This document shows positions 2,339 to 57,842 of a stretch of 64,000 nt of DNA, in pieces; position 1 is the first letter of the stretch; every line of letters starts with the position of its first letter. The stretch is taken from positions 1 to 64,000 of the forward strand of contig CAMFSU010000039.1 in assembly GCA_945983355.1 (NCBI GenBank), read 5' to 3'. The DNA is from an uncultured Clostridia bacterium (GTDB lineage Bacteria > Bacillota > Clostridia > Oscillospirales > Acutalibacteraceae). The notes below the pieces were generated by a model. The model made no database searches. It saw only the letters and a list, made by a program, of their open reading frames with translations, and was not told the DNA's origin. A program made the position numbers and the translations under genes.

Positions 2339-3763
2339 TTATAAATTATAATACTTATCAAATTCAGCGGGGTGTGGAATTGCCGCAAGCTGACGGCATT
2401 CCTCACGCTTGGATTTAATAAAGTTTTTAATAAGCTCTTCGGGGAATACACCGGCTTCTGTAAGATAAGCGTGGTCGGCTTCAAGCGCATCAAGAGCGGC
2501 ATCCAAAGAAGTGGGCAAGCCCTGAAGCTTGGCCTTTTCCTCTTCAGGAAGATGATATAAATTCACATCATAAGGACCCCAACCGTTTTCGTGTGGGTCG
2601 ATTTTATTTTTAATACCGTCAAGACCTGCCATAAGAATCGCTGCATAGCAGAAATACGGGTTGCAGGTAGCATCGGGGTTGCGAAGCTCGAAACGGCGCT
2701 TGTCGGGGCTCTTTGCATAAGCAGGAATTCTGATAACCGCACTTCTGTTAGAGGTTGCATAGCCAACAGTAACGGGGGCTTCGAAGCCGGGCACAAGGCG
2801 CTTAAACGAGTTTGTGCTGGGGTTAGTTAAAGCACAAAGAGATGCAATGTGCTTTAAAAGACCGCCCATAAAGTAATGTGCTGTTTGGCTTAAATGAGAA
2901 TAACCGTTGTCATCCGAAAATACGGGCTGACCGTCCTTCTTCAAGAGCATATGCACATGCATACCCGAGCCGGCTTCGCCATAAATCGGCTTTGGCATAA
3001 AGGTTGCGGTTTTGCCGTGCTTTAATGCGGTGTTATGAATGATATATTTAATCATCATTGTGGCATCAGCCATTTTTACAACCTCATCAAGCTGTGGCTC
3101 GATTTCAAACTGACCTGATGCGGCAACCTCAGGGTGATGATAGTTAATGCTTATGCCCATATCGGCCATATGCATACACATTTCACTGCGGCATTCGTAA
3201 GAAACATCAAACGGCTTTGCAATGTGGTAATTCTTTTGTTTTTGAACAATAACACCCTTGCCTTCGCAGTCGCTGTTCCAATAAGACTGCTTTGCATCAA
3301 CCGATGCGCCGATATAATTACCGTCAACGCCCCAAGTTACCTCATCAAAAAGGTAAAACTCAAACTCGGGCAAAATAAGCATTTCATCAGCAATACCGCT
3401 TGCCTTCATATAATCAACAGCTGCGCGGATAATATTGCGAGGATATTGTGCTAACGGGCGGTTTTGCGGATTATCAATAATCATTGCGTTACCTGTCATA
3501 GACAAGGTCGGCACATCACAAAACGGGTCAATAAGTGCAGTATCAGGGTCTGGTATAAATACCATATCGCTTTTTTCAACCACAGCATAGCCATAGTTAG
3601 AGGCGTCAAAACCAATACCGCTTTTCATTGTGTCTTCCGAAAAGTTTTGTGCGGGAATGGTTACGTGACGGTATTGACCGTTAATGTCAACCATCTTAAA
3701 GTCAACCATTTTAATATCATTTTCTTTGATAATAGCAAGAATATCCTGCACGCTTTTTGCCAT
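2339..3763 (-). CDS. glnA: Glutamine synthetase, type I
   Basis: Makes glutamine from glutamate, ammonia and ATP in the cytoplasm. Family motifs are clear: the beta-grasp start (KMVDIN), the ATP-binding GSGMHVHMLL, the glutamate-binding NRSAVIRIP, and NLYHLPEEE, which aligns with the adenylylation-site region NLYDLPPEE of I-beta enzymes. The 474 residues are also closer to the I-beta length than to the usual ~443 of Firmicute I-alpha forms. The start is at 3763 because AAGGA lies 11 bases before it, whereas the earlier ATG at 3775 overlaps this ribosome site. The gene sits directly against the left end of the mobile element. Before integration it probably followed guaA by 34 nt. Confidence 0.95.
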   Translation of the reverse strand: MAKSVQDILAIIKENDIKMVDFKMVDINGQYRHVTIPAQNFSEDTMKSGIGFDASNYGYAVVEKSDMVFIPDPDTALIDPFCDVPTLSMTGNAMIIDNPQNRPLAQYPRNIIRAAVDYMKASGIADEMLILPEFEFYLFDEVTWGVDGNYIGASVDAKQSYWNSDCEGKGVIVQKQKNYHIAKPFDVSYECRSEMCMHMADMGISINYHHPEVAASGQFEIEPQLDEVVKMADATMMIKYIIHNTALKHGKTATFMPKPIYGEAGSGMHVHMLLKKDGQPVFSDDNGYSHLSQTAHYFMGGLLKHIASLCALTNPSTNSFKRLVPGFEAPVTVGYATSNRSAVIRIPAYAKSPDKRRFELRNPDATCNPYFCYAAILMAGLDGIKNKIDPHENGWGPYDVNLYHLPEEEKAKLQGLPTSLDAALDALEADHAYLTEAGVFPEELIKNFIKSKREECRQLAAIPHPAEFDKYYNL

Positions 3764-3797
3764 AATCAGCACCATCCTTGTAAAATTTATTTACTGT

Positions 3798-3911: not shown

Positions 3912-3939
3912 TGTAGTCAAAATTGTAGTCAGTGACTAC
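3912..3939. repeat. Integrase arm-type repeats, left end
   Basis: Two direct TGTAGTCA copies 12 bp apart; the second also begins the palindrome GTAGTCAGTGACTAC. The same pair with 11-bp spacing lies just inside the right end. Such end-proximal direct repeats are typical of tyrosine integrase or Xis binding sites. The role is inferred. Confidence 0.6.
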
Positions 3940-4992: not shown

Positions 4993-5562
4993 ATGAAGAT
5001 AGGATACATTCGTGTAAGTACGGTTGAGCAGAATGAAGCCCGCCAAGAAGTTCTGATGGAACAACTCGGTGTTGAACGAGTGTTTATAGATAAGCAGACT
5101 GGTACGAATACAAACCGCCCTGCTCTGAAAGAACTAATGGAGTTCGTTCGCGAGGGCGACTGTGTTGTAGTCGAAAGCATTTCAAGATTTGCAAGGTCTG
5201 CCAAAGACCTGCTTGTGCTTGTTGATGAACTCACGAAGAAGAAAGTCAATTTCATCTCACAGAAAGAAGCAATTGACTTTTCTACACCAGTCGGCTCCTG
5301 TATTTTAGGAATTTTCGGTTCTATATACGAACTGGAAGTTTCTTCCCTCCATCAGAGACAAGCCGAAGGCATCGCTATAGCAAAGGCGAATGGAAAATAC
5401 CTCGGTAGAAAACCGATTGAGCACCCAGACTTCGAAAAAGTGGTTAAGGTTTGGCGAAATGGTGATATTACTGCTGTTGAAGCAATGAAACGGTTAGGAG
5501 GTATGAAACCCACCACTTTTTACAGAAAGGTGAAGAAATATGAAATATGTAAAAATTGTTAG
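4993..5562 (+). CDS. Serine recombinase (resolvase/invertase family)
   Basis: A small serine recombinase of 189 residues, the length of DNA invertases and resolvases. The N-terminal catalytic domain has the nucleophile in YIRVST (Ser9), the arginine-rich SISRFARS segment and LGIFGSIYELE. The C-terminus (DITAVEAMKRLGGMKPTTFYRKV) is a resolvase-type helix-turn-helix. The usual FER..I.ER stretch before RQ-EGI is diverged to LEVSSLHQRQAEGI. It probably resolves multimers or inverts a local segment; no pair of invertible repeats was found. It overlaps the next gene by 23 bases, so the two are likely co-expressed. Confidence 0.9.
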   Translation: MKIGYIRVSTVEQNEARQEVLMEQLGVERVFIDKQTGTNTNRPALKELMEFVREGDCVVVESISRFARSAKDLLVLVDELTKKKVNFISQKEAIDFSTPVGSCILGIFGSIYELEVSSLHQRQAEGIAIAKANGKYLGRKPIEHPDFEKVVKVWRNGDITAVEAMKRLGGMKPTTFYRKVKKYEICKNC

Positions 5563-6129: not shown

Positions 6130-6471
6130 ATGAGTGCATTAATCGCATCATTTCTTCTCGTAATATCAAACCTCTATATGTTAAGCACTCAAAAAAGTGC
6201 CATCTATCTTGTGATTATATTGGTGTCTATGTTTTGCTTCATTTCTTCTGCCTGTTCGTTGGACAAACCATCGCAACCGACAATTGCATTCGTCAATTCA
6301 ATCGTATTTAGTGCCGTGACGGGCATTTTGATTAGTAGCCATATCCTCTACGGAAACCAAGTCCTCGATTATCTTCTCTTGACAGGCGAGGTTTCTATTC
6401 TATTGCTTTTGAGTGTTTTTGAAATTTTCGAACCCTCCGACGTCGCATCGGAGGGTTCCATTATTTCTTGA
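6130..6471 (+). CDS. Small membrane protein, unknown
   Basis: About 113 residues with three to four hydrophobic segments (near residues 2-18, 25-42, 54-74 and 80-96). No family was recognised. The ATG at 6130 follows AAAGGAGGG at good spacing; the in-frame TTG at 6112 overlaps the preceding stop and lacks a site. The last dozen codons coincide with a GC-rich terminator-like hairpin. It probably shares a transcript with the transglutaminase-like gene. Confidence 0.6.
   Translation: MSALIASFLLVISNLYMLSTQKSAIYLVIILVSMFCFISSACSLDKPSQPTIAFVNSIVFSAVTGILISSHILYGNQVLDYLLLTGEVSILLLLSVFEIFEPSDVASEGSIIS
6430..6470 (+). terminator. Terminator-like hairpin inside the 3' end of the membrane-protein gene
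   Basis: GAACCCTCCGA pairs perfectly with TCGGAGGGTTC over a 7-nt loop, followed by a modest T-rich stretch. The stem encodes the EPSDVASEG tail of the protein, so the terminator and coding end overlap. Confidence 0.6.
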
Positions 6472-6533
6472 AAAAATATCGGCAATCTAGGATACTTCAG
6501 TATCACTTTTGAAAGATATTGGAGGAAATTAAA

Positions 6534-6884
6534 ATGAGTAAAATTTCTTACGGCAGCATTATATTCGCACACATCCCAGAGGTTGAGCATAATCCTCATC
6601 AAACACACGGTTCGCATTATTACATAGTGCTTTCGAACCCAAAGGCTTGTGCATTTTCGCCCGTTGTTCAGGCAGTCCCATTTTCAAGCAACATCAATCG
6701 CAGGTTGCCCGTTCAAATCGAGGTCAGTGCTCCTTGCTTCCCCCGCAAGAGTTTTGCCTTGGCAGAGCAACTCACCTTGCTTCCCAAGAACCTACTTGAA
6801 CAAGGTCGCTACTGCGGAACATTGGATGCGGTTCAAATGAAACGATTGCAAGATGCTATTAAAATTCAATTATCGCTCGACTAA
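6534..6884 (+). CDS. PemK/MazF-like endoribonuclease toxin
   Basis: 116 residues with the MazF/PemK fold pattern: an N-terminal YGSIIFAHIPEVEHNPHQTHGSHYYIVLSN strand-loop region, a conserved LPVQIEV strand, the ALAEQLTLL segment and a C-terminal helix ending in IKIQLSLD. Such toxins cut mRNA at short sites. The ATG at 6534 follows GGAGG; the TTG upstream is less likely. No cognate antitoxin (short AbrB-, RHH- or Phd-like gene) lies directly beside it, so it may be solitary or paired with an unrecognised small protein. Confidence 0.85.
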   Translation: MSKISYGSIIFAHIPEVEHNPHQTHGSHYYIVLSNPKACAFSPVVQAVPFSSNINRRLPVQIEVSAPCFPRKSFALAEQLTLLPKNLLEQGRYCGTLDAVQMKRLQDAIKIQLSLD

Positions 6885-6886
6885 AC

Positions 6887-6918
6887 AAAAGAAGCACGGT
6901 CCGCGCCGTGCTTCTTTT
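6887..6918. terminator. Bidirectional terminator between the MazF-like gene and the acidic protein gene
   Basis: GAAGCACGG / CCGTGCTTC with a 6-nt loop, flanked by AAAA and TTTT. It serves both convergent transcripts. Confidence 0.85.
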
Positions 6919-6919
6919 A

Positions 6920-7396
6920 TTATTCATTAGGGTCAACAAACTCAACATTGAGTGTCCAACCTTCTGAGAAAGGACTATAAGGCTCAAAGTCTTCAATGAA
7001 GTCTTTAATTAAAGGCAATTCATCAAGGTCGTTTGCATCCCATTCATCTAATTCGTCCTCGTCTGCATCCGTTAAACCGAAGAACTCTAATGCATGCTCG
7101 TCACCGTCGGCAACAAGGTCGTTCAACTCATACGGGTCCATCTCAGCTTCGCCTTGGCATTCCAAAACATATTCATCGCCGTTATCGATACCCATACTGA
7201 TTTCCTCGTCCTCGATTTCTTCGTATGCTCTTTGAAGAGCATCTTGAAGTTCAGGCACGGTATTAAGCGGGGTTTTGTTTTTGATTGCATTCTGGTATGC
7301 AATCGCTTCCTCTTCGGTAAGTTCGATTTCCCAATCAATCCAGTCGCTGCTGTCGCATTTACCGAATGTTACTCCATATCTAATTTCAACTGTCAT
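6920..7396 (-). CDS. Highly acidic protein at the end of the methyltransferase/nuclease cassette
   Basis: No family recognised. In the longest frame of 161 residues I count 49 Asp/Glu against 7 Lys/Arg, with acidic runs such as DADEDELDEWDANDLDE, giving a strong negative charge like DNA-mimic proteins. The ATG at 7396 sits eight bases after GGAG; an earlier ATG at 7405 touches the site. The gene begins 19 bases after the nuclease stop, so it should be on the same mRNA. It might be an inhibitor or immunity protein for the nuclease, or an anti-restriction protein; this is inference from charge and position only. Confidence 0.65.
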   Translation of the reverse strand: MTVEIRYGVTFGKCDSSDWIDWEIELTEEEAIAYQNAIKNKTPLNTVPELQDALQRAYEEIEDEEISMGIDNGDEYVLECQGEAEMDPYELNDLVADGDEHALEFFGLTDADEDELDEWDANDLDELPLIKDFIEDFEPYSPFSEGWTLNVEFVDPNE

Positions 7397-7415
7397 AATT
7401 TTCATCTCCGATAAC

Positions 7416-7913
7416 TTATAATTTTGGAATTAGGGTTGAAAAATCAATATTCTTAGCCCCGACTGACCATTTGCCAACTTGCATCTGCTTTAACTGTTTT
7501 CCATCTCCAAAGCTAAGCAAATCAGTTCTACCAAAATTATTTAAAATTTTATTTAAACTTCCGAGACCTGATGAAGAAAGTAGAAATGCCTCGATGGGGT
7601 CGCATAATTTGCAATATGCCCAAAGTTGACCTAAATCGTGTAGATTAAGTTGGGTTTTCTTTGCTTCGATGAAAACGATGCTTGGTCTCTTGTTTTTGAT
7701 TACAATTCCGAGAACATCGATTTGGATATCAAGCCCAACTGTTTGTGGATAGTTGTCTAATACACCATATTTTTCAAGAAAAGTGTCAAGAGTCTGGGCA
7801 TGAGAATCCACCGTAATAATAGTTGCCCCCTTGTACTTGTCTTCCAAATAGGTTTGCAGCCAATACCGCATTGGTTCATATAGTTCGAATTCTTTTTGTA
7901 CATTACTCGCCAT
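7416..7913 (-). CDS. PD-(D/E)XK-fold nuclease, probable restriction subunit
   Basis: A 165-residue protein with a readable PD-(D/E)XK core: Asp66 in QIDVLGI, then a strand ending in Glu83 and Lys85 (VFIEAKK), followed by the helix TQLNLHDLGQLWAY whose Gln96 fits the conserved helix residue of many restriction-type nucleases. Its start lies inside the end of the preceding LAGIDADG-like gene (11-base overlap in another frame), which implies coupled translation and possibly a stable complex. It has no obvious DNA-recognition domain, so specificity may come from its partner. The nuclease activity is inferred from the motif. Confidence 0.75.
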   Translation of the reverse strand: MASNVQKEFELYEPMRYWLQTYLEDKYKGATIITVDSHAQTLDTFLEKYGVLDNYPQTVGLDIQIDVLGIVIKNKRPSIVFIEAKKTQLNLHDLGQLWAYCKLCDPIEAFLLSSSGLGSLNKILNNFGRTDLLSFGDGKQLKQMQVGKWSVGAKNIDFSTLIPKL

Positions 7914-8772
7914 AGCCCAAGAACCTCGCTAAATCTGTCCACGAATCAAAATGTCTGCCTCTGATTTCCTCAGGAAGAGATGCATCCGACTCACAAGGGT
8001 GGATTGGTTTGTTTCCTCTTCTAATGGTTTTCTCCCAATAGAATTTATGAGTGTCGCTTGCAAGTGAGTTCATCAACTCTTCACTGTATTTTTCGAGTGC
8101 ATCCTGCTTGTGTTTTATGTTAAATCCAATCACAAGAAATTCATTGGCATACACTTTGATTTGGTGCTCTTTTTTCCAGAAATAGGGTTTTCCTGCATTG
8201 TATTTGGCTAATTTGCCATCTCTGAAATTAGGATGACCAAAGTCTATGGTTTGAACTGGCACACCAACATCTTTAAGCATATTGGCGATATCGATAACCA
8301 TATACCAGTTTTGAGGTATCTCGATATAAACTCTATGTGCACCTTCTTGACCAAAAGCAAGGTTGCTTTTTCGTATGTACCCAGTAACATCAGCAATGCC
8401 TCGCAACAAAGCCCGTTTCTGGTCTGTTGTAATAGTGAAGAGTTCTGGACTCATTCTCATAGTGGAGTGGTGCCGTCCGCCACCTATTAATCGCAAAAGT
8501 TCTCTCATCACATACTCATCATTAGACTTTGTGAAGGAAAGTTTTGTGGAGTGAGTGGTTTCCGTTACCATAAGATTATATCCTATTAACGGTTCAACGA
8601 TAGAACGAATATCTACAACACTCGCTTTAACATAGATGGCAACATCCTTAAAATCGTCTGTGTAAAGATTTTTGTAGGGTATGTCAATCACTACTGTGGT
8701 CGTAGTGTTGCCCCTTTGGATTTCTCCATTTCCCAATATCATTCCTATTAGGTAGGACATTTCTGCATTCAT
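7903..8772 (-). CDS. LAGIDADG-fold protein with degenerate active sites, possible specificity subunit
   Basis: 289 residues with two LAGIDADG-like helices: YLIGMILGNGEI at residues 7-18 and KRALLRGIADVTGYIRK at 119-135, as in single-chain homing endonucleases. The catalytic acid positions look lost (GDG is GNG in the first; the second D of DAD is T in DVTG), so it may bind DNA without cutting. The C-terminus (GRHFDSWTDLARFLGYGE) is outside that fold. It lies between a methyltransferase and a PD-(D/E)XK nuclease, which it overlaps, and is not inside an intron or intein. The reading as a recognition subunit is inference. Confidence 0.6.
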   Translation of the reverse strand: MNAEMSYLIGMILGNGEIQRGNTTTTVVIDIPYKNLYTDDFKDVAIYVKASVVDIRSIVEPLIGYNLMVTETTHSTKLSFTKSNDEYVMRELLRLIGGGRHHSTMRMSPELFTITTDQKRALLRGIADVTGYIRKSNLAFGQEGAHRVYIEIPQNWYMVIDIANMLKDVGVPVQTIDFGHPNFRDGKLAKYNAGKPYFWKKEHQIKVYANEFLVIGFNIKHKQDALEKYSEELMNSLASDTHKFYWEKTIRRGNKPIHPCESDASLPEEIRGRHFDSWTDLARFLGYGE

Positions 8773-8822
8773 TTTATCTTCTTCCTTTACAATGAATATC
8801 CGTGTTAATGGTGCTTAATGGG

Positions 8823-10934
8823 TTATTTTTCTCCCAAATCATCATAAATCTTATCGGCTATTGCTTTTGCCATAAGAGGTGGAACAGCATTACCGATTTG
8901 GGTGCGAATGTAGACCTTTGACCCGATAAACACAAATCTATCATCAAATGATTGAATTCGTGCCGCCTCTCTCGGTGTAATTGCCCTATGAAGATACGGG
9001 TGATTGTTTGTGCCATTGGATGAAGCATCAAATCGTGTATCTATCGTTGGCGATGCTATATCCCATTTTAGTCTGCCCCAAGTACCGCTGAATTGTTGGT
9101 TTCCTGTCAGTTCCTGCGGCAAAAATTCTTTTCCGCACTCTGGGGGAATCATCTGTAATTTTTTGATTGCTATTTCCGCATGGTTTGAAGCCTTATGATT
9201 ATATAACTTCGTACTTCCTTGCCTCATCATTCTTTGATATTCGCTTGTAGGTTCCGTAATATAATCTTGCTCAAAATCGCCTTCGCCAGAATTCAGATAA
9301 GACAAGTCAAAAATCGCATCTCTCACAGTAACAACCGTATCACAAGTAGGAATAGGAAGAGAGATTTCTCTGTGTTTGGAGCATATAAAGATAGCCCTTT
9401 GCCGTGTTTGCGGAACTCCAAAATCAGATGCGGTCAGTACACCATAGGACACGAAGTACCCCATTTGTTTAACCTTTTCAATAATTTGATTCTTAAACCA
9501 ACCAGCAGAAGTTGATAATAGTGCTTTTACATTTTCAATGACAAAAACCTCAGGTTGTAACTCGGCAACAATATTAAGGTATTCGTTAAACAAAAAGTTT
9601 CGTGGGTCATCAAGACCTAGTTTTTTTCCTTTGAGAGAAAAGCCCTGACAAGGTGGTCCACCTATAATCATATTGACAGCCTTTTCTTTGCTCAATTCAA
9701 TAATTCTTCTTCTAACGGCACAATCGGTAATGTCGCCAGACACCGTTTCGGTATTTGGCATATTGTATTTGAATGTTTCTAATGCCTTCTCGTTGAAATC
9801 CAAAGCAACTGCCGTTTTAAAATGCGGGTTCTTTTCCATTCCGTAGGACATTCCACCTGCCCCACTAAATAAATCAAGAATACGAAATTCTTCTATTTTA
9901 GGTGTGTTCAGTTTTTTGTTTTTAATCAAAATTCTTTTAAACACCTCTTTACCATTTATTGTGGGCTTGAACAAATCGTATTCATTATCCGAACCATGAT
10001 TCGCCTCGCCAACAATTTCAAATTGTTCGCTATTATATCTGTTAACGATAGTAATAGGAACTGCCATTATTCCTGCATAGTCACAAGGAATATCATTTAT
10101 TGTCTTAATATGAATGGCATCATAATTGTCATACTTTGGATGCTCTTTCGGGTCATATTTCTTTGTCAAAGGCAATTCAATGTGTCGTCTATCGTTATCA
10201 AGATTTGTTAGCCACATCGCATTCCCTAAACTTCTCCATTTTTGTCCTGATTCATCTACCCAATATCGAGTTGAACGAGGCTCAGATGACTGGGGTACAC
10301 GGAATTTCATTTCCCCAAATTGATATCCAGTCCATACTTCATTATTTTGGAGAAGAGGAAAAATTTCTTTATAGGTAAGTGCATTTTGATTTCCTATCAA
10401 AAGAAAATTTTTCTTATATTTCATTATTTCAGAAACGATTTCTTTAAATAGCGAAAAAGGAGGGTTGGTAACCACTATATCTGCTTCTTTAAGATATCTA
10501 ATGCATTCAGGGCTTCTGAAATCTCCGTCCCCTTTAAGTCGTTTGATAATCCTATTTTGTTGCAAAAACAGTGTAACATATTCATCGGATAATTCCACAT
10601 TTCCATCACACACATAGGTCACATCGAGCACATATCCATTTTCGGGACACAGCGGTTTACTTTCATCATCAAACAAATTAATTTGAGTTGCAATTACTTT
10701 TGATGACTTATAGGATGTGCAGATTAATCTTTGTAGACCAAGAGAATTGAAATTTCTTAAAAAGAACCTACAAAAATTAGATTCAAAAGGGTCGTCACAA
10801 TTACACAACACAGTCTTACCCTTAAACTGTTCCTTATAATGCAAGACCTCTTTTTCAATAGTTTCATAGGTGGTATAGAATTCATCGTCCTTCGCCTTTT
10901 TGGCGGCTTGAAGATTAGTATTTTTGTTGCCCAT
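8823..10934 (-). CDS. Fused DNA methyltransferase: EcoRI-type adenine plus C5-cytosine domains
   Basis: About 703 residues in two methyltransferase halves. Residues 1-340 resemble the EcoRI adenine-methylase family: GNKNTNLQAAKKAKDDEFYTT start, NPPF catalytic motif near 157-160 and the WLTNLDNDRR segment. Residues 350-703 form a complete Dcm-type enzyme: DLFSGAGG (motif I, ~354), GGPPCQGFS with the catalytic Cys (IV, ~425), ENV (VI), QTRQR (VIII), RAITPREAARIQSF (IX) and QIGNAVPP (X). It would place both N6-methyladenine and 5-methylcytosine marks. The ATG at 10934 lies after AAAGG; an ATG six codons earlier has no site. It is the first large gene of the cassette and is expected to protect self DNA. 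Confidence 0.9.
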   Translation of the reverse strand: MGNKNTNLQAAKKAKDDEFYTTYETIEKEVLHYKEQFKGKTVLCNCDDPFESNFCRFFLRNFNSLGLQRLICTSYKSSKVIATQINLFDDESKPLCPENGYVLDVTYVCDGNVELSDEYVTLFLQQNRIIKRLKGDGDFRSPECIRYLKEADIVVTNPPFSLFKEIVSEIMKYKKNFLLIGNQNALTYKEIFPLLQNNEVWTGYQFGEMKFRVPQSSEPRSTRYWVDESGQKWRSLGNAMWLTNLDNDRRHIELPLTKKYDPKEHPKYDNYDAIHIKTINDIPCDYAGIMAVPITIVNRYNSEQFEIVGEANHGSDNEYDLFKPTINGKEVFKRILIKNKKLNTPKIEEFRILDLFSGAGGMSYGMEKNPHFKTAVALDFNEKALETFKYNMPNTETVSGDITDCAVRRRIIELSKEKAVNMIIGGPPCQGFSLKGKKLGLDDPRNFLFNEYLNIVAELQPEVFVIENVKALLSTSAGWFKNQIIEKVKQMGYFVSYGVLTASDFGVPQTRQRAIFICSKHREISLPIPTCDTVVTVRDAIFDLSYLNSGEGDFEQDYITEPTSEYQRMMRQGSTKLYNHKASNHAEIAIKKLQMIPPECGKEFLPQELTGNQQFSGTWGRLKWDIASPTIDTRFDASSNGTNNHPYLHRAITPREAARIQSFDDRFVFIGSKVYIRTQIGNAVPPLMAKAIADKIYDDLGEK

Positions 10935-11020
10935 AATAATAGCCTTTCTCATACAAAATTCGTAAGAATATCTTATTCTCCATCATCAGCATACAAAAAA
11001 CAATGTCCCATAAAACGGAC

Positions 11021-11227
11021 TTATGCATCAACACTCTCACAAATGTCGCAGAGGTCAACTTCAAGCCTCTCGCAAATGTCCAAAAGGGTAGTAAGAGACA
11101 CGGGCTCGTCTTTATTCAACTTGGTAGCGGTGGCGGTTGAATAGTTGCACATCTTACGGAGTTCCGCCTTGCTAATCTTACGGTCGATAAGGATTTTGAA
11201 AAGTTTTGCATACGAAATAGCTTTCAT
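11021..11227 (-). CDS. Small Cro/C1-type HTH regulator
   Basis: 68 residues, essentially one helix-turn-helix domain of the Cro/C1 (HTH_26) type: YAKLFKILIDRKISKAELRK, then the recognition region NYSTATATKLNKDEPVSLTTLLDICERLEVDLCDI. AGAGGTG gives a clear start. It precedes the methyltransferase by 86 bases on the same strand and its promoter contains palindromes, so it probably controls itself and the cassette in the manner of a restriction-modification controller protein. Confidence 0.85.
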   Translation of the reverse strand: MKAISYAKLFKILIDRKISKAELRKMCNYSTATATKLNKDEPVSLTTLLDICERLEVDLCDICESVDA

Positions 11228-11240
11228 AATTTTTCACCTC

Positions 11241-11286
11241 TTGGTATGATTAATGCCATTATACCATTTTTTATGGCATTTATCAA
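11241..11286 (-). promoter_or_regulatory. Promoter and palindromic operator of the methyltransferase/nuclease cassette
   Basis: Minus strand: -35 TTGATA, 17-bp spacer, -10 TATAAT. The -10 and spacer are spanned by the inverted repeat AATGCCAT / ATGGCATT (11252-11280), and a second pair TGGTAT / ATACCA overlaps the start-proximal side. Palindromes over the core promoter suggest autorepression by the small HTH protein encoded immediately downstream. Confidence 0.7.
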
Positions 11287-11536
11287 CCGTTTTCGAGAAA
11301 ATGTCGAGAAAAAGTTCGATTTTCGCTTTTTCTTGATTCCCGATAGATGTTATTTTATAATTAAATCGTCCTCCGAAAAAGTGGATATATATGGATATGA
11401 AACAGTAACTCTTGCCAGTGCAGGTTTTGCTGTTTCTTTTTTGTGCCGTTTTCAACTTTAAAAGTTCAAATCAAGTGGTTTTTACACCAACTCTTTCATC
11501 AGAATGATATTTGCAGCGATTTTATCTTTAAAAGTC
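11287..11536. other. Intergenic spacer with palindrome copy 1
   Basis: No gene is supported. It contains one full TTTTCAACTTTAAAAGTTCAAA palindrome at 11449-11470 and a partial one (ATCTTTAAAAGTCAAAA) near 11524-11540. Confidence 0.5.
11449..11470. repeat. Dispersed palindrome TTCAACTTTAAAAGTTCAAA, copy 1
   Basis: First of several copies in the element's intergenic DNA. Others are at 11614-11636, 13895-13918, 13967-13990 and 14157-14177, with a partial copy at 11524-11540. All have a central CTTTAAAAGTT-like core. Confidence 0.65.
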
Positions 11537-11683
11537 AAAAATCAATAGAAATTTTGCTCGCCGCCCCACGGAATTCCGCCACCAGAGCGAAAAGCTCTTA
11601 AAAAAATAGACCATTTTCAACTTTAAAAGTTCAAAATGGTCATTTTTATTATTTTGCGAATAAATTACATTCTATTGATTTTT
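11537..11683. repeat. 147-bp segment bounded by a perfect 14-bp inverted repeat
   Basis: AAAAATCAATAGAA at 11537 and its exact complement at 11670-11683 enclose a GAGC-GAAAA-GCTC hairpin and a palindrome copy. It could be a miniature transposable element remnant or a structured RNA end. It abuts the stop codon of the next gene. Confidence 0.5.
11609..11646. terminator. Bidirectional terminator built on palindrome copy 3
   Basis: GACCATTTTCAACTTT pairs with AAAGTTCAAAATGGTC with one mismatch. On the minus strand it is followed by a run of T, placing a terminator ~40 bp after the minus-strand hypothetical gene; the plus side is also T-rich. Confidence 0.65.
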
Positions 11684-12177
11684 TATTGCAGCTCAACGGC
11701 GGCTCCCATCAGGAAGACAGTATATAAAATAGTCAATACCATTTGAATGCTGTTGGTATTGATATCAAGTTGATAGGTAAGACACGGGCGAAGAAGTACC
11801 TTCTGCTTTTCTTTTAATTCTCCGAACCCACCGACCGATAGTGCCGACATAGTTGTTTGCAGTAATTCATCCATATCGTGCCCCATATTCATATTCAATA
11901 TATCCTCGATACGAGTGATATAGTGTATGTCGTCTGGGTCTGAATGCTCTAATAGAATTCTCGTGAGTTTTCCTGCAAGAAAGCATTCGCATATCATTCT
12001 ACCGCCGTTACTCATTTCAGGTCTATCACAATTATAGGCATAAAGCATTCTTTTCTGTGTATAAAAGTCTGCGAAGCTTTGCAATGTGGGGTTCTCAAAG
12101 GTCTGTTGGTCGGTTAGTCCCATCTCCTCAAAAAAATATTTTTTTAACTGCTCAAAATAGTCGTTATTTTTCCCCAT
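11683..12177 (-). CDS. Hypothetical protein (164 aa)
   Basis: Not recognised. The sequence is soluble and mainly helical until a hydrophobic tail (IQMVLTILYTVFLMGAAVEL) that could be a membrane or packing helix. Three cysteines occur, two of them in MICECFL. It has its own promoter, with -35 TTGTAC and -10 TAAAAT on the minus strand, is transcribed away from the replication gene, and ends at a terminator hairpin. No ribosome site better than AAAGAGG before the ATG is visible. Confidence 0.55.
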   Translation of the reverse strand: MGKNNDYFEQLKKYFFEEMGLTDQQTFENPTLQSFADFYTQKRMLYAYNCDRPEMSNGGRMICECFLAGKLTRILLEHSDPDDIHYITRIEDILNMNMGHDMDELLQTTMSALSVGGFGELKEKQKVLLRPCLTYQLDINTNSIQMVLTILYTVFLMGAAVELQ

Positions 12178-12667: not shown

Positions 12668-12699
12668 TTATCACTTTTAATTTAAAGGAGGTGATAAAT

Positions 12700-13701
12700 A
12701 TGTTAGATAGCATCAGAGTGTCAGTGCCTATAAAAATCGAACCCAGCGACTACACAATAGACTGGGAGGCGGGCATAGATGAAGGTGTGCCTTATATCGA
12801 TAAACTCGTCAGACTGCCAAATGGTGCAACCGTGTATATGAAATATCGATACACACAGTTGTTGACCTTGTATTTCTCGGCATCAAAGGTTCAGAACGGA
12901 AGCAATGCGATTGCATACGATTTTGAACGACGGAACGTCGTGAAAAATGCCATACTAAAACTGCTCGAAGATGAACTTGGTATCACACATCTCAAACTCA
13001 CGGACTTTCTCGTCTGCCGTTTAGACCTGAACCGTGATTTTGTTTATGAAAAAGAAAAAACCGCAACCGAAGTTGCGGAGTTCTCGAACAAGATTTTGCC
13101 GTTGGGCTATGAAAATAGAAAAGACTACGACACAGGATTAACTTCTCAGACACGAAAAGGTAGAGGGCTTCGTGTTTACCGCAAAGATAAAGATAAAAGA
13201 AATCCCGCATCAGAACCGACAGTTCGGTTCGAGTTTCAGTTAGACAAAAAATCAGTTACTCGTTTTTTCGGTCACCGACCAACCCTCAACGAAGTTTTAT
13301 CTAATCAAGTTTCGATAGAAAAGGTCTGGAACAAAGCGATTTCAAGATATGCCCTTGACAAGGCAATCCTTACTGCCGCCGAACTCCAAAAGGTTTCGCT
13401 ATCAAACCTTACCCCTATGCAACAAAGCACCCTGCATCAAATGAATTATGCTCCTTGTTTTAGCGATAAGAAGCAGAGGACCAGACAACTTGCAGTAATC
13501 CGCAAGTTGAAGGAAATGGAAATATGCCCATATTCCTGCGAGGTTCCAATTGATTTAAGATTAAGTGTTTGCAGCACGATAATGAAAATACGAAGAAAGA
13601 AGATATTAACCAATGAAAGAAGCAAACATATTTTATTGTCAGAAGTTATATTACGAGATACCAACTGTAAAGTCAAGAAATGGTATCTCGATAGTTCCTA
13701 A
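12700..13701 (+). CDS. Replication initiator-like protein (gpII/X or Rep_trans type)
   Basis: 333 residues resembling rolling-circle replication proteins of the phage gene II/X type: the beta-strand RLDLNRDF, a long KILPLGYENRK helix-strand, LRVYRKDK, and VRFEFQLDKKSVTRFF near the middle. Such proteins nick one strand at an origin; relatives (MobT/Rep_trans) also act as relaxases in mobilizable elements. The ATG at 12700 is chosen because AAGGAGGTGAT ends four bases before it. An upstream GTG in the same frame is part of that site. The catalytic tyrosine cannot be assigned with certainty. It lies between the AT-rich spacer and the xis-int block. Confidence 0.65.
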   Translation: MLDSIRVSVPIKIEPSDYTIDWEAGIDEGVPYIDKLVRLPNGATVYMKYRYTQLLTLYFSASKVQNGSNAIAYDFERRNVVKNAILKLLEDELGITHLKLTDFLVCRLDLNRDFVYEKEKTATEVAEFSNKILPLGYENRKDYDTGLTSQTRKGRGLRVYRKDKDKRNPASEPTVRFEFQLDKKSVTRFFGHRPTLNEVLSNQVSIEKVWNKAISRYALDKAILTAAELQKVSLSNLTPMQQSTLHQMNYAPCFSDKKQRTRQLAVIRKLKEMEICPYSCEVPIDLRLSVCSTIMKIRRKKILTNERSKHILLSEVILRDTNCKVKKWYLDSS

Positions 13702-13937
13702 ACTCTATAACATACACTCACTTCGTTTTACGGATTACAAACGAAGGGGTCATATTTTACTCAAACCGAGGCTATTTTCTTCCAAATCTTTTACTTTTTC
13801 AAAGAAATGGAATGATGATAGTCTGCTTTGCTATACCCATTATTAAAAAATCTAATCCGTCATCGCTCACTTAATTCGAAGAAAATTTTATCGCTTTTTG
13901 AATTTTAAAAGTTCAAATTTAATACCGTTTTCAAAAA

Positions 13938-13962
13938 CACCTTATAAAAGGTGCTTTTTTTA
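13938..13962 (+). terminator. Short terminator after the replication gene
   Basis: A 6-bp stem CACCTT / AAGGTG with a tight loop, followed by CTTTTTTT. Confidence 0.55.
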
Positions 13963-13966
13963 TATG

Positions 13967-13990
13967 TTTTTCAACTTTAAAAGTTCAAAA
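13967..13990. repeat. Dispersed palindrome, copy 5
   Basis: TTTTCAACTTTAAAAGTTCA-type copy between the short terminator and the xis-int leader. Confidence 0.6.
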
Positions 13991-14236
13991 GTGCCGTTTT
14001 TTCATTTTTGTATTTTTGGTATCTATTTTTTTCTCGATGTTTTTCCTCGAAAAAAATTTTTTCGTCAAGTTGCACGAAATTTAATATGCAAATTGCACTG
14101 AAATAGCCATAAAATTTCCAACCCAATAAATTCACATTTTCAAATTTTTGGGCATTCTGAACTTTAAAAATTCAAAAGGGCTATTTTTTTGATTTTTTGC
14201 CATTTTTGCCTGATTTTATGCGGGTTTTCGGGGGTA

Positions 14237-14751: not shown

Positions 14752-14961
14752 ATGTCTAATACTATTCAAAAGCCTACGGGCGAAACTCTATTTATCAAAG
14801 CATCCGAAGTTGCAATCGTGATGGATGTATCTCGTGCCTATGCATATCGCATTGTAAAGCAGCTAAACGAAGAACTGGCTGCAAAAGGCATTTTAACTAT
14901 CGATGGTCGTACAAACCGTAAGTATTTCTATGAGAGACTTTACGGCACGGTATCGGCATAA
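14752..14961 (+). CDS. Xis-like winged/HTH DNA-binding protein
   Basis: 69 residues. The core FIKASEVAIVMDVSRAYAYRIVKQLNEELAAKG is a helix-turn-helix followed by a beta-wing (ILTIDGRTNRKYFYERLYG), the pattern of small proteins found just upstream of Tn916-family integrases. It probably binds the element ends and directs excision. Start after GGGGG at proper spacing. It ends 13 bases before the integrase start, so both are on one transcript behind the attenuator-like leader. Confidence 0.8.
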   Translation: MSNTIQKPTGETLFIKASEVAIVMDVSRAYAYRIVKQLNEELAAKGILTIDGRTNRKYFYERLYGTVSA

Positions 14962-14974
14962 GGGGGGCAGGACG

Positions 14975-16093
14975 ATGAGTGAATATCGTAGCCTTGTAAA
15001 AAAAGATGGCGACAAATATCGTGTGTTTTACAGTTATATTTCTCCAAAAGACGGAAAAAGGCATCGCACCTGCAAGCGAGGTTTCAAACTAAAAAAGGAT
15101 GCAGACAAATGGGTTAAATATGACCTTCCTAATATTATCAAGCAACTCGAACATGTTGAGACACTTGACGAGAACTTAACTATGGGAGAATTGATTGACA
15201 AATACAAGCATCACATCTCACTTCGATTAAAACCTACAACTATCGCCACCAAGGAGCACATTATCGATAAGAAAATACTCCCTTTTTTCAAGGATAAGGT
15301 CGTTTATAAGATATCGGTAAAAGATGTCGAATCGTGGCACGATGAATTACTTATAGCAGAAAGCAGGAGCGGTAATAAATACTCTCCCACTTATCTTCGC
15401 ACCATTAACAATCAATTGTCGGCAATTTTAAACTATGCTGTTCGTAAACATGGTTTAAAACATAACCCAATGAATGATGCCGAAACAATTGGCTGTCACG
15501 AAGGCGACGAGCGAGATTTTTGGGAAGTGGAAGAATATCTAAAATTTAGAGATGCTATCTCAGACAAACCTATTTTCTACTATGCCTATGAAGTGCTTTT
15601 TTGGTGCGGGTTAAGACTTGGTGAGATGCAGGCATTAACCGCAGAAGACATTGATTTTGAAGCAATGACACTTCGAGTGGATGAAAGTTATGCCCGTTTA
15701 AACAAGCAAGATATCATTAGTGGCCCTAAAACAAAAACCAGCAAGAGAACCATTGCCATCCACGACGATTTGGCACTCGAACTAAAAGAGTATCTGGAAA
15801 GTCTTGGTCCAATCGACCAAAAAGCGAGGATTTTCCCAGTTTCCAAATCTGGAATGCACCACGAAATGGAACGAGGATGTAAATTGTCTGGGGTAAAGAA
15901 GATTACCATACACGGACTTCGACATTCGCATATTTCTATGTTAATGGAAATTGGTGTGCCTGTGGTTGCTATTGCTCCACGAGTTGGTCAAAAGCGAACT
16001 TCAATGACAATGCACTACGGACATCAATATAAGAAACGAGCCCGTGAAATCGCTAACAACATTAATGAAATGGCAGGTAAACAAAGTGTCTAA
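14975..16093 (+). CDS. int: Tyrosine integrase
   Basis: 372 residues in the usual three-part layout: an N-terminal arm-binding domain (YRVFYSYISPKDGKRHR), a SAM-like core-binding domain, and a catalytic domain with the first Arg in WCGLRLGEMQAL, Lys in KTKTSKRTIA, HGLRHSH box and the tyrosine in MTMHYGHQY. It catalyses integration at the 3' end of guaA and excision with the Xis-like partner. The ATG at 14975 follows AGGGGGGC. An upstream in-frame GTG lies inside the Xis gene and is not needed. Confidence 0.95.
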   Translation: MSEYRSLVKKDGDKYRVFYSYISPKDGKRHRTCKRGFKLKKDADKWVKYDLPNIIKQLEHVETLDENLTMGELIDKYKHHISLRLKPTTIATKEHIIDKKILPFFKDKVVYKISVKDVESWHDELLIAESRSGNKYSPTYLRTINNQLSAILNYAVRKHGLKHNPMNDAETIGCHEGDERDFWEVEEYLKFRDAISDKPIFYYAYEVLFWCGLRLGEMQALTAEDIDFEAMTLRVDESYARLNKQDIISGPKTKTSKRTIAIHDDLALELKEYLESLGPIDQKARIFPVSKSGMHHEMERGCKLSGVKKITIHGLRHSHISMLMEIGVPVVAIAPRVGQKRTSMTMHYGHQYKKRAREIANNINEMAGKQSV

Positions 16094-16409
16094 AAAAAAT
16101 TGCGACAAAAAACAAAGATGGCGATGTATAACGGTTAGTTTCCGTGTATCGCCACAAGAAAACGAAACCATCAATACGATGGCAAAAACCTCTGGGCTGA
16201 CCAAACAAGAATATTGCACAAGACGATTGCTTTGCACGGATGTTGTAGTTCATCCAAACATACGAGTGCAAAAGTATCTTCGTGATTATCTTGTCGGTCT
16301 TACAGAGGAACTGAAACGACTGGAACAGATTGACCAGTCTACGGATGTGCTCGAAAACATCAAATATCTGTTGGAGTTTATTGAGAAACTTTCTTCAACA
16401 GACGACTAA
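16086..16409 (+). CDS. MobC-like relaxosome/mobilization protein
   Basis: About 107 residues with a ribbon-helix-helix start typical of MobC-type accessory proteins: ITVSFRVSPQENETINTMAKTSGLTKQEYCTRRLL, followed by a coiled C-terminal helix (LTEELKRLEQIDQ). Such proteins bind oriT and help a relaxase. A GTG overlapping the integrase end by 8 bases follows GGCAGG and is preferred; ATG codons at 16068 and 16044 are alternatives. No large Mob relaxase is encoded nearby, so it may work with the gpII/X-like protein or in trans. Confidence 0.75.
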   Translation: MSKKNCDKKQRWRCITVSFRVSPQENETINTMAKTSGLTKQEYCTRRLLCTDVVVHPNIRVQKYLRDYLVGLTEELKRLEQIDQSTDVLENIKYLLEFIEKLSSTDD

Positions 16410-17205: not shown

Positions 17206-17224
17206 TGTAGTCAAAGTGTAGTCA
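17206..17224. repeat. Integrase arm-type repeats, right end
   Basis: Two TGTAGTCA direct repeats 11 bp apart, matching the left-end pair. Confidence 0.6.
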
Positions 17225-17282
17225 GTGGTAAAAACGGGAACTCAAAAAGCCCGTAAAATCAAGGGTTTTCGAGGATACCTTA

Positions 17283-17295
17283 TTATTCCCACTCT
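17283..17295 (-). other. Right attachment site within the guaA 3' end
   Basis: TTATTCCCACTCT on the plus strand, encoding the last residues (Glu-Trp-Glu) and stop of guaA. The element supplies an intact end, with GAA replacing the GAG codon seen in the left copy. Confidence 0.8.
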
Positions 17296-18284
17296 ATCGT
17301 GCCTGTGGGTTTGGGTGTAAGGTCCATAAGCACGCGGTTTATGCCCTCAACCTCGTTTATAATGCGGTTGGTAATCTTGTGCAAAACGGGATACGGAATT
17401 TCCTCAACGGTGGCGGTCATAGCATCAACCGTGTTTACTGCACGGATAATTGCCGGCCAGCCCTCATATCTGCCCTCATCCTTAACGCCAACGCTTTTAA
17501 TGTCGGGTATAACAACAAAATATTGCCAAACCTTTTCGGCTAAACCGCAAAGGTCGAATTCTTCCCTTAAAATTGCGTCTGCCTCGCGCAAAGCGTTTAA
17601 TCTGTCGCGGGTAATTGCGCCAAGACATCTAACGCCTAAACCGGGGCCCGGGAAGGGTTGACGGTAAACCATAGCGTGTGGAAGACCTAACGCCTCGCCA
17701 ACAACACGAACCTCATCTTTAAACAAAAGCTTCAACGGCTCAACCAATTCAAAGTTTAAATCTTCGGGCAAACCACCAACATTGTGGTGAGATTTTACCG
17801 CTTTTTTACCTTCGGCTTGTTTAATGCTTTCTAAAATATCGGGGTAAATTGTGCCTTGTGCAAGGAAAGAAATGTCATCAAGCTTTCTTGCCTCGTCAGC
17901 AAAGACATTTATAAATTCAGCACCGATAATTTTGCGCTTTTTTTCGGGGTCGCTGACATTTTCGAGCAGATTTAAAAAACGGTCAGTGGCGTCAACATAA
18001 ATTAAGTTGGCGTCCATTTCATCCTTAAATATTTTTACAACATTCTTGGATTCATCCTTACGCATTAAACCGTGGTTTACGTGAACACAAACAAGCTGTT
18101 TGCCAATGGCTTTAACCAAAAGGGCCGCAACAACCGATGAATCAACACCGCCTGAAAGTGCCAAAAGCACCTTCTTGTTGCCAACCTGTTTGCGAATTTC
18201 TTTTATTTGTTCATCAATAAATGCATTTGCAAGATCAAAATTTGTGATTCTTTGCATATTTTCAGGGCGGACATTATTTGACAT
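17283..18284 (-). CDS. guaA: GMP synthase ATP-pyrophosphatase subunit (no glutaminase domain)
   Basis: 333 residues covering only the ATP-PPase and dimerization parts of GMP synthase. The P-loop-like [16 protein letters not shown] is at residues ~41-56; [13 protein letters not shown] and the C-terminal KPTGTIEWE are present. The N-terminal class I glutamine amidotransferase (about 190 residues in most bacteria) is absent, as in archaeal two-subunit enzymes, so a separate glutaminase or free ammonia must supply nitrogen for XMP to GMP conversion. No such subunit is in the window. The 3' end is the integration site of the mobile element. It is 27 bases behind the CofE-like gene, probably one operon. 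Confidence 0.93.
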
Positions 18285-57701: not shown

Positions 57702-57720
57702 ACAAAAAAGAAAAAATCAA

Positions 57721-57842
57721 CCTTTGTCCTTTTGCCTGAGAGATTAGCGGTTAAAAACCGCCTTGCCCCTTCGGCATCTGATTTAACAGAATTCTCCAAA
57801 GTGCTATCAGTTCACAGTCGTTTATACTTCTGCAAACCTCAC
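57721..57842 (-). promoter_or_regulatory. Glycine riboswitch (single aptamer)
   Basis: On the minus strand GGAGAATTC, GATGCCGAAGGGGCAAGGC, CTAATCTCTCAGGCAAAAGG, ACAAAGG match the glycine aptamer consensus; the P1 stem is CTTTG / CAAAG. Upstream sequence to ~57842 (GCTATGTGAGGTTTGCAG) may be the ghost aptamer or a leader stem. It controls the AGCS symporter gene. Confidence 0.93.

Follow-up and report, generated by a model that had tools for sequence, protein, structure and literature searches.

We describe a candidate restriction-modification (RM) system encoded within a 64,000-nucleotide (nt) stretch of DNA from an uncultured Clostridia bacterium (contig CAMFSU010000039.1, positions 1 to 64,000 of the forward strand), referred to here as the window. 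In this locus, a fused methyltransferase with N6-methyladenine (m6A) and 5-methylcytosine (m5C) halves is followed by two genes that we call lag and nuc, which encode a LAGLIDADG-fold protein and a small PD-(D/E)XK nuclease, respectively. We consider it likely that Lag and Nuc constitute one restriction endonuclease, in which Lag reads the DNA and Nuc cuts it, and that the two methyltransferases guard opposite strands of one asymmetric site. The m6A and m5C methyltransferase, lag, and nuc together are a conserved module. A preliminary description of this DNA had proposed a restriction cassette, and the locus does look like one: its gene content is that of a Type II RM system, with methyltransferase(s) and nuclease encoded together in 43/43 genome loci.

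These 43 distinct loci were obtained by scanning a genome collection with lag alone. In every one of them, lag has nuc directly downstream (truncated in L033, where the contig ends) and a DNA methyltransferase gene upstream. The adjacency of lag and nuc is thus more than chance, and in a mechanical call of open reading frames (ORFs) their frames overlap in all 48 loci from L003 to L050. When the search was reversed and nuc served as the query, it recovered exactly the plasmids (2 of 72,556), phages (2 of 50,697), and viral contigs (4) that lag had recovered. A copy of lag and nuc is carried by plasmid p9 of Lactiplantibacillus plantarum. The preliminary description had held that the LAGLIDADG-type protein and the nuclease belong together and had named co-occurrence of their homologues with the methyltransferase elsewhere as its own test; both expectations were borne out by the 43 loci. 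The loci are not independent: L046 duplicates L045 exactly, and the members of five other sets are 95.7 to 99.7% alike. By record title, the genome loci fall in Bacillota, Bacteroidota, Spirochaetota, Elusimicrobiota, Thermodesulfobacteriota, Melainabacteria, and Thermoplasmatota; because most are metagenome bins, single host assignments may be wrong. The family is rare. With the window's genome counted in each case, it occurs in 2 of 60 relatives and in 4 of 398 genomes of the phylum; in the class of G037, it occurs in 2 of 341 genomes.

The window methyltransferase joins an EcoRI_methylase domain (amino acids [aa] 13 to 346, E value 1.4e-120) to a DNA_methylase domain (aa 356 to 703, E value 2.7e-69). 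Both halves are found in 38 of the 43 genome loci, as one ORF in 15 and as two ORFs in 23, counts in which the ORF of L031 is short and that of L021 is cut by the contig. The other genome loci carry, upstream of lag, an m5C methyltransferase at a contig edge (one locus), a TaqI-like m6A methyltransferase with a PF01555 protein (three loci), or a PF01555 protein at a contig edge (one locus, L040). In all, six loci (L041, L042, L043, L077, L078, and L079) have an N6_Mtase/Eco57I (TaqI-like) enzyme plus a PF01555 N6_N4_Mtase in place of the EcoRI-type and m5C pair, and no m5C relative was found within the available stretches of these six loci and L040. The PF01555 proteins carry SPPY, which is typical of enzymes that make N4-methylcytosine. 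This recurrence of two methyltransferases in non-homologous pairs is our reason for proposing that the site is asymmetric and that each strand bears a single mark.

The preliminary description had left two roles for the double methylase, protection of two sites or of both strands of one site. We favor the second by inference, since methyltransferases unrelated to those of the window are found in twos as well, and the first does not stand as well. That the methylase modifies two independent sites, only one of which is restricted by Lag and Nuc, would fit the separate ORFs of the m6A and m5C halves in 23 of 38 loci and the EcoRI-type methylases that elsewhere occur alone beside an EcoRI-type nuclease or a DUF262 gene. 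However, pairs recur even when both members are unrelated to those of the window, as expected if each guards one strand, and we regard two independent sites as rather unlikely.

Methyltransferase exchange seems to have taken place at the viral locus L080. In a tree of 50 Lag rows, the 39 rows with the EcoRI-type and m5C pair form one starred side (100/99), whereas Lag of L080, which has that same pair, groups with the TaqI-like loci (85/87 and 90/60, not starred). Among 200 bootstrap trees, the share in which the EcoRI-type label makes up one side of a branch is 0%, a result to be read with the caveats that the starred branches alone do not force it, that long branches meet, and that the bootstrap is unsettled. 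The m5C methyltransferase of L080 is 70% identical to that of the window and its m6A relative is at 58%; a scan of the viral contigs with the m6A half found no relative, its exact patterns missing the one in L080. Region 181 to 300 of the m5C methyltransferase, which we take to be the recognition region, has a mean column identity of ~0.71 versus 0.72 overall (43 rows). Most simply, the two kinds of methyltransferase pair would protect one and the same site, given the placement of L080, the likeness of its m5C enzyme to that of the window, and a presumed recognition stretch about as conserved as the whole; this also agrees with the retention of six Lag residues described below.

A remoter branch departs from this arrangement. 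In L054 (4295 to 7417) and L056 (4431 to 7478), an m5C methyltransferase alone is followed by a 463- to 464-aa Lag relative with a C-terminal extension and then by a 191- to 196-aa nuc-like gene. Lag matches the group of L054, L055, and L056 with an hhalign E value of 1.3e-35, and the nuc-like genes of L054 and L056 match nuc weakly. L055 has a PF01555 gene and lag without nuc, and L057 is decayed.

Some further features of the methyltransferases were observed. Residues 81 to 140 of the window m6A half are variable, with a mean column identity of 0.30 to 0.34 versus 0.63 for the whole half. The modules of L003 and L004 are 97.7% alike although they come from Desulfobulbaceae and Clostridiales metagenome bins, a likeness that reflects either recent transfer or a binning error; their m6A half is only 59% like that of the window, versus about 80% for m5C, Lag, and Nuc, and a swap of the m6A half is possible. 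On Lactobacillaceae plasmids, an EcoRI-type m6A methyltransferase adjoins a DUF262 gene (L059:1934-4106 and L060:802-2981).

The AlphaFold2 model of Lag has two domains with the LAGLIDADG fold of homing endonucleases, and its two LAGLIDADG motifs lie on helices that end, in the model, at residues 15 and 130. Judged from the residues of I-DmoI and PI-SceI that align first, the catalytic aspartates of both fall opposite residue 15, provided that no gap intervenes. Across 54 Lag rows, the first acid position is N in 49, K in 2, G in 2, and R in 1, and the second is T in 51, I in 2, and A in 1; the acid that LAGLIDADG homing endonucleases have at the end of the motif helix is absent from all 54. 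Lag is thus very probably dead as a nuclease. Its C-terminal tail, HP.E.....P..IRG.H, is conserved. R134, N137, R147, Y149, H203, and Q204, possible contact residues that were chosen after the alignment had been viewed, are kept in 52 of the 54 rows, even in L055 (30% identity), and are lost only in the two m5C-only rows. That the LAGLIDADG-type protein supplies DNA recognition, as the preliminary description suggested, is most likely.

The AlphaFold2 model of Nuc has a PD-(D/E)XK nuclease fold, with modest fold scores, and the whole protein is taken up by a single nuclease domain. The D...(D/E)xK signature of the superfamily is present as D66/E83/K85/Q96, which is intact in all 35 Nuc rows. 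The window Lag and Nuc were searched against Pfam, PADLOC, NCBIfam, PHROGs, and PDB sequences, with no match or only matches at an E value of 0.05 or weaker; with profiles against the PDB, Nuc had no match and Lag had one chance-like match (E value 0.2). In PADLOC, neither protein was matched for the window (E values up to 1) or for L005, L042, and L054 (E values up to 0.01). Pfam matches of the wider families were weak only: of the 15 Lag rows scanned, 3 matched DUF2525 (best E value 0.0017), with Hom_end in 2 (0.0039), and LAGLIDADG_3 in 1 (0.048), and among the 35 Nuc rows, DUF7194 in 4 (best E value 0.0025), YhcG_C in 3 (0.024), DUF4468 in 2, and four more families, UPF0102 among them, in a single row each, these last all at 0.021 or weaker.

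Three other readings of lag and nuc were each rejected as the main one. In the first, Lag would be a transcription regulator that, like WhiA, employs the LAGLIDADG fold, here for control of the system, and Nuc alone, with recognition of its own, would be the restriction enzyme. WhiA is likewise not known to carry the catalytic acids, and G174 (from an order represented by 3 genomes only) retains lag without an adjoining nuc. This reading is nevertheless quite improbable, since Nuc has only 165 aa, filled in the model by one nuclease domain, the two frames overlap at all 48 loci and are confined to the same plasmid, phage, and viral records, and a separate regulator is already encoded in 11 of 57 loci. 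The fold of Lag would equally suit a free-standing homing endonuclease that has invaded an RM operon, but the missing acids at both catalytic positions in 54/54 rows and the invariable position of lag between methyltransferase and nuc in 43/43 genome loci make this very hard to credit. It is just as implausible that Nuc, aided by Lag, is a Vsr-like repair nuclease for T:G mismatches arising by m5C deamination, for although a PD-(D/E)XK fold beside an m5C methyltransferase would suit it, the tie to m5C is broken in the six loci (L041 to L043 and L077 to L079) that have lag, nuc, and a complete non-m5C pair with no m5C relative in the available stretches, and no Vsr family match was found in Pfam.

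On the basis of what sequence and models provide, namely, the gene set and order, the folds, the loss of acids in Lag, the Nuc motif, the co-occurrence, and the non-homologous methyltransferase pairs, we infer that Lag and Nuc form one enzyme and propose a mechanism that extends to complex formation, recognition, strand assignment, cleavage, and regulation. Lag would bind one asymmetric DNA site, and Nuc, which has no evident recognition domain, would be bound and placed by Lag and would cut. Because there is only one kind of active site, two Nuc molecules would be needed to cut both strands, probably as a Nuc dimer or between two Lag-Nuc units. Within this site, the m6A half would modify an adenine in one strand and the m5C half a cytosine in the opposite strand, which would protect the host.

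Expression may be controlled by the small helix-turn-helix (HTH) protein encoded upstream. The window has the layout of a controller (C) protein, that is, a small upstream HTH gene and an inverted repeat over the promoter, and the palindrome-covered promoter that had been reported is indeed there. This promoter is the top scorer among 23 sites in 6400 to 11700, where shuffled sequence averages 16.3 sites. The inverted repeat is perhaps the operator of the HTH protein, which here probably acts as a repressor of the shared promoter and would delay or damp expression of the system. Upstream of the HTH gene in seven other loci, repeats are weaker in two (L044, 10-nt arms with a mismatch; L028, 6-nt arms) and absent from five. 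An HTH relative is encoded in 11 of 57 scanned loci, the window and 10 others, several contigs ending too early to show one; it also occurs in a locus of the TaqI-like type (L077). The HTH regulator is thus an optional member of the system.

The acidic protein encoded after nuc (isoelectric point 4.05, 30% D+E) was rejected as a module member. It was absent near lag in 48 related loci (0/48), only the window's own copy was found over the whole stretches of 46 loci, and there was no match in 50,697 phage records, in a search that left plasmids and genomes aside. All five minus-strand ORFs of the preliminary description are present where it placed them, and nuc does start inside the 3' end of lag, with 11 bases (7903 to 7913) common to both. 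The gap between the nuc stop codon and the acidic start codon is, however, 10 bases rather than 19, and the idea of a five-part cassette is not supported by the distribution of the acidic and HTH genes. Given the distribution of the acidic gene, the suggested role of the last protein as a brake is without comparative support.

Features of the locus and related loci (window coordinates unless a locus is named; a dot marks features without strand)
Feature	Position	Strand	Description
HTH gene	11021..11227	-	68 aa; HTH_26 Cro/C1-type regulator, Pfam E value 2.8e-13
Fused m6A (EcoRI-type) and m5C methyltransferase	8823..10952	-	709 aa; Pfam
lag	7903..8772	-	289 aa; LAGLIDADG fold without catalytic acids, proposed recognition subunit
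nuc	7416..7913	-	165 aa; PD-(D/E)XK nuclease fold, proposed cleavage subunit
Acidic protein gene	6920..7405	-	161 aa; close behind nuc, outside the conserved module
Sigma-70-type promoter	11258..11286	-	TTGATA-17-TATAAT, extended -10, 11/12 matches
Inverted repeat spanning promoter	11247..11285	.	13-nt arms, 92% complementary, 13 nt apart
Terminator-like stem-loop	6887..6918	.	14 pairs, 4-nt loop; between acidic gene and facing PemK-like gene
Accessory GYLxSPGR-like protein	L028:2793-3224, L041:2810-3241, L044:5532-5981, L077:7153-7605, L078:7374-7820, L079:5199-5645, L080:2868-3278		

The five genes presumably form one transcription unit, from the promoter to the terminator-like stem. A PemK/MazF-like toxin gene (6519 to 6884) faces the operon across this stem. 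The locus lies between housekeeping genes for glutamine synthetase (2342 to 3775) and GMP synthase (17286 to 18284), in company with genes for a serine resolvase (4993 to 5562), the PemK-like protein, a tyrosine integrase (14903 to 16090), and a NikA-like mobilization protein (16044 to 16406); with such neighbors, it is likely that the locus sits in a mobile element. A 15-nt direct repeat (14/15 alike; 3920 to 3934 and 17213 to 17227, 13.3 kb apart) stands between the flanking housekeeping genes and the element genes, and its copies are possibly attachment sites or else a chance match. An A+T-rich repeat around AACTTTAAAAGTT has six copies (11437 to 11470, 11507 to 11540, 11602 to 11635, 13884 to 13917, 13956 to 13989, and 14143 to 14176), which stand on both sides of 12691 to 13701 and may be iterons or recombinase arm sites.

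Elsewhere, two gut phages classified as Ca. Heliusvirales (L048 and L049) carry the module close to one of their ends, and in L049 an excisionase gene adjoins it. Over 6 kb, L049 and L005, a locus of Ruminococcus torques, are 97% alike, which suggests a prophage at the latter. An accessory protein of 144 to 151 aa with a GYLxSPGR-like motif is encoded near lag and nuc in both methyltransferase types (24 to 64% identity between loci); in L080, a NOV_C domain follows later in the same ORF. The accessory protein's own part had no significant Pfam match in the four copies scanned and no PADLOC match in the two scanned. The window also holds a glycine riboswitch on the minus strand (57714 to 57809).

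Taken together, the module is real, widespread, and mobile, an RM variant by its genes that is apparently undescribed in the literature covered; no restriction enzyme with a LAGLIDADG reader was found among the papers listed from the open-licence PMC literature, a search that left out REBASE and most subscription journals. Lag and Nuc may well be the first restriction endonuclease family to read its site with a nuclease-dead LAGLIDADG fold and to cut with a separate minimal PD-(D/E)XK protein. The enzyme would be naturally modular: in bacteria, archaea, plasmids, and phages, it would have been joined to at least two methyltransferase pairs of unrelated kinds while apparently keeping its site. 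In the remoter branch, its partner would be one m5C methyltransferase alone, and its reading surface would have changed. If this is true, a dead LAGLIDADG reader with a 165-aa cutter would illustrate the recruitment of a selfish endonuclease fold for defense, provide a natural, ready-made split nuclease, and account for a mobile defense module of which PADLOC profiles detect only the methyltransferase. Because one nuclease family is paired with unrelated methyltransferases, the notion of one site with different guardians can be tested directly. The LAGLIDADG fold is a principal scaffold of designed meganucleases, yet it lies outside the main Type II catalytic themes (PD-D/EXK, HNH, and GIY-YIG) named in a main review (PMC4081073), and the word has 0 occurrences in that review.

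The nearest known kind is the split Type II enzyme, as in the Type IIT or heterodimeric BspD6I (BstNBI), BtsI, and BsrDI. The module has two adjacent, overlapping genes (48/48 loci), which would encode two subunits of one enzyme, and two methyltransferase domains (one ORF in 15/38 and two in 23/38), which would each guard one strand. According to the review, a Type IIT enzyme generally comes with a methyltransferase for each strand, the two being either separate or joined (PMC4081073). In BspD6I, BtsI, and BsrDI, however, the large subunit also cuts one strand, whereas Lag, the large subunit here, has a LAGLIDADG fold without catalytic acids. Because Type IIT is defined there by two different catalytic sites (PMC4081073), and acid-free Lag (54/54 rows) leaves the Nuc site alone, we do not file the system under Type IIT, even though we liken it to BspD6I and BtsI.

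Type IIS enzymes such as PaqCI and FokI differ in that recognition and cleavage would here fall to separate proteins and the recognition fold would be LAGLIDADG. PaqCI was considered as a possible LAGLIDADG reader and set aside: its recognition domain is likened to that of FokI, and a term search of the paper did not return the word LAGLIDADG (PMC10201449). The PaqCI recognition domain is absent among the fold matches listed for Lag, which in itself proves nothing. The Nuc pairing proposed here would resemble the meeting of two PaqCI nuclease domains on one DNA (PMC10201449). MhoVII of Mycoplasma hominis has, like the window, a fused double methyltransferase, which guards a non-palindromic site, but both of its halves are m6A and its single restriction enzyme gene is likened to FokI (PMC12898733). 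The EcoRI system shares the EcoRI-family m6A half; the window lacks an EcoRI-type nuclease gene and adds m5C, lag, and nuc. Lag is set apart from WhiA by its adjoining methyltransferase genes and its conserved C-terminal tail, and it has the fold of the LAGLIDADG homing endonucleases I-Tsp061I, I-DmoI, and PI-SceI but differs from them in these same two respects and in its absent acids.

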